Shown piece after piece: positions 18,171 to 21,645 of a stretch of 35,029 bases of DNA; the first letter of the stretch is position 1; the number at the start of each line of letters is the position of its first letter. The DNA is from Nitrososphaerota archaeon (lineage in GTDB: Archaea > Thermoproteota > Nitrososphaeria > Nitrososphaerales > Nitrosopumilaceae), in the NCBI GenBank assembly GCA_021325595.1, contig JAJPGX010000006.1, forward strand, positions 1 to 35,029. The letters are read 5' to 3'. A program made the position numbers and the translations under genes. The notes under the pieces are model-generated. The model made no database searches. It was not told the origin of the DNA and worked only from the letters and a program-made list of their open reading frames with translations.

Positions 18171-18749
18171 TTAACCCAAAGATCTTGAATGCTTTTGGGT
18201 ATGTGGTCTTTCTCCTGGAAATTTTCGTCGCATGTGACCAGATGGTCTTGAATACAACAATTCTAAAAACCAGGCTTCATGCTCTATTTCCTCTCTTAGG
18301 ATGTCTTTTGCAACATCATATGTAGCTGGGTCTTTATCAAAAGTCATTTTGCAAACTTTATTCCAGTTTACAATTGCTCCCTGCTCTGCTTTAAGGCACT
18401 TTTCTAAAATTGCTTTTGTGTCAGTAGGATTGGTTGGTAATTGCAAAAATTCGCAACCTGACATCTTGATGAAATCTTGTGCATCTGTTGGTAAGCTTCC
18501 TCCAAGCTCATAGATCCTCGACAAGCATGACTCAAAATGACTTAGGTCTTCCATTCTTGCATCCTCGATTACCCCTTTGATTGACTCGCCTTCCATTCCA
18601 ACACAATGCGCCCGTAGGTTTGTAAAGTAATAGTATGCCGTAAACTCTACTGAGGCATTGTAGACAAGCGCCTTGATGAGTTCTTTGACATCGACACCGT
18701 TTTGTTCAAGAACTTTGACACCAACTACGTTAACGTCTTTCTTGGTCAT
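18171..18749 (-). CDS. Dps-like ferritin (DpsL/thioferritin type)
   Basis: A 192-residue four-helix ferritin-like protein that should oxidise Fe(II) with peroxide and store iron, protecting DNA. Ferroxidase-type residues are placed as in bacterioferritin: Glu35 (SVEFTAYYYF), Glu68 and His71 (MEDLSHF), Glu122 (KAEQGAIVNW), Glu154 and His157 (REEIEHEAWF). Cys99 and Cys118 resemble the Cys pair of the archaeal DpsL group. The C-terminus is His/Arg/Lys-rich (SGHMRRKFPGERPHTQKHSR), which could bind DNA. An in-frame start at 18806 would add 19 residues, but a TATA-like TTATATTC about 25 nt before ATG 18749 favours the shorter form. It is divergent from a MarR regulator. Confidence 0.88.
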   Translation of the reverse strand: MTKKDVNVVGVKVLEQNGVDVKELIKALVYNASVEFTAYYYFTNLRAHCVGMEGESIKGVIEDARMEDLSHFESCLSRIYELGGSLPTDAQDFIKMSGCEFLQLPTNPTDTKAILEKCLKAEQGAIVNWNKVCKMTFDKDPATYDVAKDILREEIEHEAWFLELLYSRPSGHMRRKFPGERPHTQKHSRSLG

Positions 18750-18814
18750 ACTGGCGCTCAAGGCTGTTTGGAATATAAGCAAATCGCAGGGATTTAGACG
18801 CATCATTTATAATT

Positions 18815-18843
18815 ATTAGATAACTAATCGTTAGGCATCTAAT
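18815..18843. promoter_or_regulatory. 29-bp nested palindrome, probable MarR operator
   Basis: ATTAGAT (18815-18821) and ATCTAAT (18837-18843) are perfect inverted arms; inside them CTAA (18824-18827) and TTAG (18831-18834) form a second perfect pair around TCG. The whole element is symmetric about the same centre with no extra bases on either side. It lies over the predicted transcription start of the MarR gene, just after a TATA-like TTTATAATT (about 18806-18814), and upstream of the divergent ferritin gene. The likely binder is the adjacent MarR protein. Confidence 0.7.
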
Positions 18844-18844
18844 A

Positions 18845-19333
18845 ATGATAAAATTTGACTTTGAAAACAGCATGGGATTTGTTGTAAATAACACGGCCAA
18901 ATCCTTTCAAAAAGCCTTGGATTTTGAGCTCAGAAAAAATGTTGGTGTCACACTTAGTCAATGGCGAGTTGTGGTGACTTTGGTCATGCATCCTGGTATA
19001 ACACAAAAAGAGATAGCTGATAGAGTGGGAATTGAGAGCGCTACGTTGGTTCCAGTTATAGATAAAATGGAAAGCGATGATCTTTTGGTACGAAAACCTG
19101 ACTCAAAAGATAGGCGAATCAACAGGATCTATCTTACTTCAAAATCTGACGAACTGTGGGAATCAATGCTAGAGTGTGCACTCAGGATAAGAAAATCTTC
19201 TGTCAAAGATGTGTCAGAAAGTGATCTGAAAACAACAATGGAGACTCTACGAAAAATATCTAGTAACTTGTCCATATATACGGATGTTGACAAGAAAATA
19301 ATTCCAGTAAAAAGAATAAAGGAGGCGCGGTAA
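18845..19333 (+). CDS. MarR-family transcription regulator
   Basis: A 162-residue winged-helix regulator. It has the MarR pattern: helix NTAKSFQKALDFELRKNVG, then LSQWRVVVTLVMHPGITQKE and the HTH IADRVGIESATLVPVIDKME, the wing LVRKPDSKDRRINRIYLTSK, and a C-terminal dimerisation helix. MarR proteins usually repress themselves and an adjacent exporter, releasing DNA when a ligand or oxidant binds. No Cys in the DNA-binding part suggests a small-molecule rather than thiol signal. It sits four bases upstream of an MFS exporter gene (operon) and divergent from the ferritin gene, with a symmetric operator in between. Confidence 0.92.
   Translation: MIKFDFENSMGFVVNNTAKSFQKALDFELRKNVGVTLSQWRVVVTLVMHPGITQKEIADRVGIESATLVPVIDKMESDDLLVRKPDSKDRRINRIYLTSKSDELWESMLECALRIRKSSVKDVSESDLKTTMETLRKISSNLSIYTDVDKKIIPVKRIKEAR
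19321..19325 (+). promoter_or_regulatory. Shine-Dalgarno of the MFS exporter gene
   Basis: GGAGG inside the end of the MarR gene, 12 nt before ATG 19338. The spacing is slightly long, but the site supports translation of the second gene from a shared message. Confidence 0.5.
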
Positions 19334-19337
19334 GTAA

Positions 19338-20810
19338 ATGTCAAAACCAAATATTGATACTTTGCAAGAAAGGATCTCACCAGCTGCTTGGAAGATGCTT
19401 GCAATCTTGAGCTTACTTGCAACAATGGTGATGTATGCAGAAACGATGCTGGTACCGGCAATCCCTGATTTGATTAAAGACTTTCATATATCATATGGCA
19501 CATCATCGTGGATCCTTACAACTTATCTTATTGCAGGAGCAATCATGACTCCTATTGCTGGAAAGTTATCTGATATCTACGGACAAAAAAAAATTCTGCT
19601 TGTTATAATTGGGATATATGCAGTAGGTGTTTCAATAGGTGGGTTTACAACTAACATCTATGAAATGTTAGGAGTCCGTGTTATCCAAGGAATTGGAATG
19701 TCCATGTTTCCAATTGCTTTTGGTATGATTAGAGAGAAATTTCCAAGAAGTAAACTAGCCATAGGGCAAGGCATCATAACATCAATGTTTGCCTCAGGGG
19801 CAGTTATCGGACTTTTGGCTGGGGGGCATTTGATACAATCTTTTGGCTGGCAAGCCACTTTCTTTACCATGATACCAGTTGTGCTATCCATGCTCGTGGT
19901 GATAACACGTTTCATACGTAAACAAGAGCCTCACCCACAATGGAAGGAAAACCAGTCCAGTAATACACAAAAGAAAGGATTTGACATCCTGGGGGCGATC
20001 ACTCTGACCGTATCTATTACTTCATTTCTGATGGCACTTACGATGGTTGAAAGTAGTAATGGCACCGACTCTTTCATAACAGTTGGGCTTGTGGTTATAG
20101 GGATTGTATACATGATACTTTTTGCATTGATTGAAAAAAATTCTAAATTTCCACTTGTTAATCTCAAGATACTTGGACATAAAACAATACTGACATCAAA
20201 TATCATGGTCATGATTGTAGGTATGTCCATGTTCATGGTGTTTCAAACTATTCCGGTTCTAATCCGTAGTCCCTTGCCACTTGGTTTTGGCGAGGATCCT
20301 ACAATGACAGCACATGTTCAGCTTCCGTTTGCTCTGGTTCTGTTAATTTTTGGGCCAACTTCTGGGTTTATCATATCAAAACTTGGTGCTACAAAACCAA
20401 TAATCGTTGGAGGTTTGATAAGTGCAGCTGGATTTGCTAGTTTGTATCTGTATCATTCTACTGAATTATTAATCTCTGTAAATCTTGCAATATTGTCTAC
20501 AGGACTATCACTGACAAATGTTGGTGCCATGAATGTGATCATGTTGGCTACTCCAAAACAAGATGTTGGGGTATCACTTGGAATGAGTACATTAATTAGA
20601 ATAATTGGGGCATCAATTGGACCTGCGATGGCTGCCATGTATATGCAGACCAATACTGCAACAATACCGGGAATACCTGGAGTTTTTCCCAACATGGAAT
20701 CATACAATCTGATATTTCTTACAGCTACGATAATTTCCCTAGCATCATTTTCTCTTGCCTTGATCCTGAGAAAATCCATTTCAAATATTCACTTACATAA
20801 CATGAACTAG
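19338..20810 (+). CDS. MFS multidrug exporter, DHA2 (14-helix) type
   Basis: A 490-residue major facilitator protein with about 14 predicted membrane helices, the length and layout of the EmrB/QacA drug-proton antiporters. The family motif between helices 2 and 3 is present as GKLSDIYGQKKILL, and the helix-5 motif region contains GAVIGLLAGGHLIQSFGWQATFF-like sequence (around residue 165). It likely pumps out hydrophobic toxins or stress metabolites using the proton gradient. It is the second gene of a marR-exporter operon, so its expression probably answers to the MarR ligand. The substrate cannot be read. Confidence 0.92.
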   Translation: MSKPNIDTLQERISPAAWKMLAILSLLATMVMYAETMLVPAIPDLIKDFHISYGTSSWILTTYLIAGAIMTPIAGKLSDIYGQKKILLVIIGIYAVGVSIGGFTTNIYEMLGVRVIQGIGMSMFPIAFGMIREKFPRSKLAIGQGIITSMFASGAVIGLLAGGHLIQSFGWQATFFTMIPVVLSMLVVITRFIRKQEPHPQWKENQSSNTQKKGFDILGAITLTVSITSFLMALTMVESSNGTDSFITVGLVVIGIVYMILFALIEKNSKFPLVNLKILGHKTILTSNIMVMIVGMSMFMVFQTIPVLIRSPLPLGFGEDPTMTAHVQLPFALVLLIFGPTSGFIISKLGATKPIIVGGLISAAGFASLYLYHSTELLISVNLAILSTGLSLTNVGAMNVIMLATPKQDVGVSLGMSTLIRIIGASIGPAMAAMYMQTNTATIPGIPGVFPNMESYNLIFLTATIISLASFSLALILRKSISNIHLHNMN

Positions 20811-20970: not shown

Positions 20971-21645
20971 ATGAAAATTATGGTAGCACAAAAAAATATT
21001 GTTCAATCAGGAAACCATGCATACGATGCTTTGATTAACACTCTTCAAAAAATCATACCTGAATCTCAAATAACATTTTCTCATAAGGCTGAGTACTGTT
21101 GCGCTGCACTGGTGGATATTGTAAATTCTACTAACATCACTTCTAGATTATCCAATGTGTATGCGTGTATGTATTATGATGTTTTTCTTAATATGATGTC
21201 TGCCATTGCCACAGATTCGGGTGCAACAGTAGTAAAAAACATTGGCGATAGTCTTCTATTTTTTTTCCCGTCGACAATTGGTAAAGAGAAAAAAACAGAA
21301 TTCCGCAGTGTAATTGAATCTCTATTTAGAATGATTGACGCACGACCATTTATTAATCAAATTATGAGTGATAACAAGTTACCGGAAATAAGTTATAGGA
21401 TAAGTTGTGATTTTGGTGCTGTCATGATGGCAGATTCAAAGATGTCTAATACCAAAGACATTTTTGGCACTCCAGTAAACTTTTGCAGCAAAATGAATCG
21501 TCTTGCACAACCTAATCAGATAATCATAGGCGGTGACATGTACCAATGTATTAAGAAGGAAAAACAGTTCGTATTTGAGGAATTAAAATCAAATTATAAG
21601 AATAAAATTGCATATTCTGTTTATATTGTGAAAAGAAATCAATAG
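20971..21645 (+). CDS. Class III adenylate/guanylate cyclase-like protein
   Basis: A 224-residue protein with a cyclase homology domain and a short N-terminal helix; no membrane segment. Metal-binding Asp49 (ALVDIVNST) and Asp93 (NIGDSLLFFF) are present. The substrate region DIFGTPVNFCSKMNRLA has Asp163 and Asn170, but where class III cyclases carry the transition-state Arg (Asn plus four) there is Lys174. The enzyme may thus be slow, differently specific or inactive. It would make cAMP or another cyclic nucleotide. Start ATG 20971, with ATG at residue 4 as alternative; TATA about 22 nt upstream. Not in an operon. Confidence 0.85.
   Translation: MKIMVAQKNIVQSGNHAYDALINTLQKIIPESQITFSHKAEYCCAALVDIVNSTNITSRLSNVYACMYYDVFLNMMSAIATDSGATVVKNIGDSLLFFFPSTIGKEKKTEFRSVIESLFRMIDARPFINQIMSDNKLPEISYRISCDFGAVMMADSKMSNTKDIFGTPVNFCSKMNRLAQPNQIIIGGDMYQCIKKEKQFVFEELKSNYKNKIAYSVYIVKRNQ

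Follow-up and report, generated by a model that had tools for sequence, protein, structure and literature searches.

A palindromic element at positions 18815-18843 (ATTAGATAACTAATCGTTAGGCATCTAAT) of the window, the stretch of 35,029 nucleotides analysed here, is very likely the autoregulatory operator of the MarR gene downstream, where it would shut off both marR and an MFS exporter gene. The boxes of the element, their position, their conservation, their near-uniqueness and their co-distribution with MarR paralogues can be read directly from the compared sequences and are described below.

Gene context of the element

The host genome of 1.64 Mb encodes an archaeal AmoA (352 bits; 0/14 control genomes gave a match), which identifies the host as an ammonia-oxidizing archaeon. 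The element is flanked by a minus-strand gene for a Dps-type ferritin and a plus-strand MarR-MFS gene pair. MarR proteins of the compared genomes were divided by their identity to the focal protein into class A (64-74% in intact relatives), class B (about 49-58%) and class C (about 34-43%). The features of the region are:

18171..18749, minus strand: archaeal Dps-type ferritin (NF040955), start moved from 18806 to 18749
18773..18786, minus strand: core promoter predicted for Dps, CGATTTGCTTATAT; its columns are conserved across 28 loci
18806..18813, plus strand: predicted TATA box, TTTATAAT, assigned to the MarR-MFS operon; in 30/30 class A loci a TATA-like start precedes box 1 by 8-9 bp
18815..18843, no strand: whole symmetric element (putative operator), centre 18829, kept in relatives
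18816..18827, no strand: box 1, TTAG-ATAA-CTAA, exact TTAG-N4-CTAA
18831..18842, no strand: box 2, TTAG-GCAT-CTAA, centre 15 bp from the box 1 centre
18845..19333, plus strand: MarR-family regulator of class A, 162 aa (PF01047); in 30/30 loci the start codon follows box 2 at 2-5 nt
19338..20810, plus strand: MFS exporter, EmrB-like, probably in the same operon as MarR (PF07690, 188.4 bits)

The neighbouring genes for ferritin, MarR and exporter are those named in the original prediction, save for the ferritin start. The longest open reading frame would place it at 18806, and this was rejected because relatives are homologous only from 18749, or from a few codons further on; 18749 is probably the start of the Dps gene. 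The encoded protein scored 271.8 bits against NF040955 (archaeal Dps), above the cut-off of 250. For the MarR protein, 53.2 bits were obtained with the winged-helix MarR domain of Pfam (PF01047, cut-off 24.6) and 52.3 bits with the SlyA equivalog NF002926, which lies below the cut-off of 120. In comparisons with sequences of solved MarR-fold structures it matched the 2eb7 group (E 1e-5) and the 3bpv group (E 7e-4), which we take to be archaeal MarR proteins. When the MarR protein was used as query against genome contigs, a single match was obtained, on a contig titled Lactobacillaceae.

The exporter reached the cut-off of the general MFS_1 family, and with 138 bits fell below that of EmrB/DHA2 (TIGR00711, 230.2). 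In the window 4 bp separate the MarR stop codon from the start of the MFS gene, and MFS adjoins MarR in 30/30 class A loci, being split in two pieces in L007; given this short gap and constant adjacency, the MFS gene should use the MarR promoter. Further downstream, positions 20971-21645 (plus strand) of the window encode a stand-alone adenylate/guanylate cyclase domain protein (PF00211, 44.4 bits).

Cys111 of MarR (window 19175-19177) is kept in 32/34 class A, 10/11 class B and 0/10 class C proteins and is possibly a redox or metal sensor. The underlying alignment comprised 34 class A proteins (30 loci and L092, L093, L103 and L104), 11 from the 19 of class B and 10 from the 23 of class C; the G017 gene, which is broken, and the G024 and G027 relics were not part of it.

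The palindrome consists of two tandem boxes

The nested perfect arms with one centre that had been described before were recovered, the outer pair being ATTAGAT/ATCTAAT (7 bp) and the inner pair CTAA/TTAG (4 bp), both centred at 18829. The symmetry extends to 18806-18852, with 19/22 arm positions paired. Among all arm pairs compared, this value for 22-bp arms is unique within the window, and 0/100 dinucleotide shuffles of the whole window reached it (best 18), which together exclude a chance origin. The palindrome is real and conserved.

A finer structure had been missed: the element is composed of two tandem 12-bp palindromes, TTAG-N4-CTAA, with 3 bp between them and centres 15 bp apart. Nested arms around one centre follow automatically from two tandem palindromes. 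Pairing of the N4 letters was counted in distinct sites, 31 for class A, 16 for class B and 15 for class C (from 36, 19 and 23). In class A, pairing across the common centre was 0.46 compared with a column-shuffle mean of 0.286 and was reached by 0/2000 shuffles, kinship being ignored; the common centre therefore has some support of its own. Pairing within the class A boxes was 0.371 compared with 0.271, a value reached by 0.0045 of shuffles, again with kinship ignored. Class B sites gave 0.469 across the centre and 0.109 within boxes, and the former is so near its shuffle mean of 0.438 that it reflects column make-up. In class C, pairing was clearly above shuffles neither across the centre nor within boxes. 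Class A gives both signals, and the functional unit may be either a 12-bp box or the entire dyad of 27 bp. That two independent boxes do not fully account for the common-centre symmetry is a point against the self-regulation reading.

The boxes are conserved at class A MarR promoters

A class A MarR was found in 33/37 genus genomes, and the operator is at the same place in all 33. Genomes without class A are G013 and G025 (54 and 86% complete), G024, where MarR is deleted, and G027, which has a relic. Tandem boxes with 0-2 mismatches are present in all 30 class A loci retrieved, as well as in G030, G010 and at the broken G017 gene. In 30/30 loci they lie between TATA and ATG, where the palindromic operator of a MarR-family regulator would be expected. 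As had been proposed, the element covers the predicted MarR transcription start, between the TATA box at 18806-18813 and the ATG at 18845. The original prediction was to fall if the palindrome were absent from close relatives with the same gene order; it is present there, and with boxes kept at the same place before MarR the element is very probably an operator. G057 and G043, which belong to another family, carry MarR, MFS and boxes without Dps. Degraded sites, with 2 mismatches in G010 (second box) and 3 mismatches in G043, speak against self-regulation.

By hand, 46 sites with at most 1 mismatch were counted in the 37 genus genomes: 29 at class A genes, 15 at class B genes, 1 at the G024 relic and 1 elsewhere, in G014. 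With 2 mismatches allowed, the plain pattern matches 37/37 genus genomes, a tally that proves nothing alone because the reversed control also matches, 0-5 times per strand. An exact form of the pattern, which misses the focal site with its TCG spacer, was found in 10/200 genomes of the order (control 0), each of the ten with one match at a class A-type MarR. A second exact match is located in G014, away from the class A-type MarR.

Two further observations concern sites away from MarR genes. L096 (2067-2093; G014:C7:23066-23092) contains the tandem boxes without mismatch, preceded by a TATA-like stretch, and no ORF directly downstream reaches 80 aa; this is possibly the trace of a lost gene or the promoter of a very short one. 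In L099, L100 and L102 (G014:C16, G001:C213 and G002:C78) tandem boxes with 2 mismatches lie at least some 70 bp upstream of genes whose products are related exported proteins (about 720 aa), the G002 gene being cut by the contig end. A wider MarR regulon in one subclade is a possible explanation for these three sites.

The probable operator and the divergent Dps gene

It had been suggested that one regulator controls iron storage and toxin export together. On this reading MarR would act through a shared operator on the MarR-MFS genes and on the divergent Dps gene, either repressing both or activating Dps from upstream, and would couple iron storage or peroxide defence to export. We regard this as improbable. 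The divergent Dps-MarR order is found in 29/37 genus genomes (28/30 loci and G017) and in the sister genus G078, which keeps joint control conceivable, and the Dps TATA centre is just 46-53 bp from the operator centre in 28 loci. A link to iron is also thinkable since SlyA has been reported to react to iron status via aromatic acids (PMC12506092). Finally, in G024 (L094) the MarR-MFS pair is deleted and the operator has survived with the first MarR codons beside Dps, adjoining a thioredoxin reductase gene. This survival without MarR was counted in favour of a shared operator and against self-control.

The promoter of the Dps gene argues against such an arrangement. The predicted core promoter CGATTTGCTTATAT occurs once in the focal genome, is kept in G027 and G078, and would set the Dps start at or near the leaderless ATG at 18749. 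In the form CGATNTNYTTATAT (18773-18786, minus strand) it is likewise a single genome copy, conserved in the genus and in G078, and the CGAT upstream in it may be more than a plain BRE. Measured from the Dps start, the operator is 67-93 bp upstream; it lies outside this core promoter, about 50 bp from it. Across the 28 loci with a linked Dps gene, conservation is strong for both promoters and for the TTAG/CTAA letters, and weak for the columns from the Dps promoter to the MarR TATA box, which again does not favour a shared operator.

In addition, operator and Dps separate both ways. G027 (L110) has lost the MFS gene, most of MarR (scraps remain) and the operator, yet kept Dps and its core promoter. 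Conversely, MarR, operator and MFS are present in G010, G020, G021 and G030 with no Dps of this type alongside. G078 retains the divergent order and the same Dps core promoter, with the operator 272 bp from Dps. A scan of the 320 bp next to Dps, which left out G107 (broken Dps) and G208 (no Dps match), found no operator in ten other sampled genera, nor in G054 and G057 (best 6-7 mismatches). A requirement of the operator for Dps is accordingly unsupported by the natural losses in G027, G054, G057 and the ten genera, with G024 as the exception.

Joint control of iron storage and toxin export is conceivable but not the preferred reading. An exporter under its own MarR is the ordinary case. Control of ferritin by the operator looks unlikely, and the ferritin link is a weak lead. 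There is a small chance that the tandem SlyA-type operator is a two-way switch, at which one MarR complex both represses the exporter operon and adjusts the divergent Dps gene; if true, this would join iron storage and peroxide defence with small-molecule export, for example of a phenolic or metal-binding compound that MarR senses. In one soil ammonia oxidizer two Dps genes were raised on solid surfaces, in a study whose main text does not name MarR (PMC11561398).

Paralogous MarR classes carry their own boxes

Class B genes have TTAG boxes in 19/19 upstream regions, the second half of box 2 usually being CAAA. In class C, boxes of the TTGG/TTTG type were found in 22/23 upstream regions. Both classes share the tandem layout of class A, each at its own gene start; G027 has a class C member that fits this layout imperfectly and stands against the preferred explanation. 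In each of the classes A, B and C the boxes lie between TATA and start. Each MarR class having its own boxes at its own gene is as self-regulation predicts.

A relaxed pattern has three matches in the focal genome, at the class A MarR promoter, at the class C MarR promoter and inside one SMC-like coding sequence. Non-coding DNA of this genome therefore contains only two such sites, one per MarR gene. The plain pattern with 3 mismatches gave 7 matches there, compared with 29 for the reversed control. The search for further copies that had been proposed as a way to define the regulon yielded the second site, at the class C promoter, and otherwise nothing in the focal genome except the one coding-sequence match. 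The same matches led us to reject a broader iron regulon in this genome. At the focal class C MarR gene (L109; G000:C45, from about 116826) three tandem TTGG/TTTG-type boxes follow a TATA-like stretch; a divergent gene and a downstream gene there both encode exported proteins.

Another regulator might chiefly bind the focal site, for example a class B paralogue where one is present, and the site would then be a node of cross-talk instead of self-control. The TTAG letters common to classes A and B would permit this, but the focal genome encodes no class B protein, having A and C alone, and class C promoters differ in their letters; we consider the proposal very improbable. The idea that the palindrome arose by chance or forms a structure such as an RNA hairpin or terminator, and has no DNA-binding role, to which its near-perfect inverted repeat with 22-nt arms might point, can practically be dismissed given the shuffles, the location of the element mostly upstream of the predicted transcript start, and the conservation of the TTAG/CTAA letters themselves, beyond pairing alone.

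Comparison with known systems and proposed mechanism

The box TTAG-N4-CTAA corresponds to the consensus of SlyA of enteric bacteria, TTAGCAAGCTAA or TTAN6TAA (PMC5797941), and the focal element contains two exact boxes. A copy of the SlyA box has been described 22 bp upstream of slyA (PMC5797941), and SlyA is reported to repress itself and a linked, divergent efflux operon (PMC6401476). In contrast to SlyA, the focal site combines two boxes, spaced by 15 bp, with an archaeal promoter of the TATA type, and the focal exporter is co-directional with MarR. As a MarR-family member that scores below the SlyA equivalog cut-off, the focal protein may work like SlyA by analogy without being filed as SlyA. 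A second parallel is MepR-MepA of Staphylococcus aureus, in which a MarR-family self-repressor controls the adjacent efflux pump and a GTTAG motif is present (PMC3617543) and two MepR dimers were suggested at mepA (PMC3617543). This system differs in its MATE pump and bacterial promoter, and it is likened here by description, not by protein sequence.

MarR binding, repression, the number of dimers and the inducer are inferred. In the proposed self-regulatory mechanism two MarR dimers would occupy the two tandem TTAG-N4-CTAA boxes between TATA and start codon, and the 15-bp spacing would place them on roughly opposite faces of the helix. Since the operator spans the position expected for the polymerase between TATA and start, bound MarR could block basal factors or RNA polymerase and thereby keep marR and the downstream MFS gene off. 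An inducer, which may be an aromatic acid or else an oxidant or metal that acts at the conserved Cys111, would free MarR and turn export on. The divergent Dps gene would be run by its own core promoter about 50 bp off, probably with no direct control by the operator.

Significance

Few local regulators with a known binding site seem to have been described in ammonia-oxidizing archaea. The pair described here is a candidate regulator and operator in these organisms that is open to test, and it places a SlyA-type TTAG-N4-CTAA box on an archaeal promoter. The paralogous MarR classes, with boxes differing in one or two letters, offer a handle on shifts in MarR specificity. The locus also calls for caution, as a conserved divergent neighbour alone is not evidence of joint control. 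Taken together, the best reading of the sequences is an ordinary MarR self-regulatory circuit, well conserved, that would operate on an archaeal promoter.
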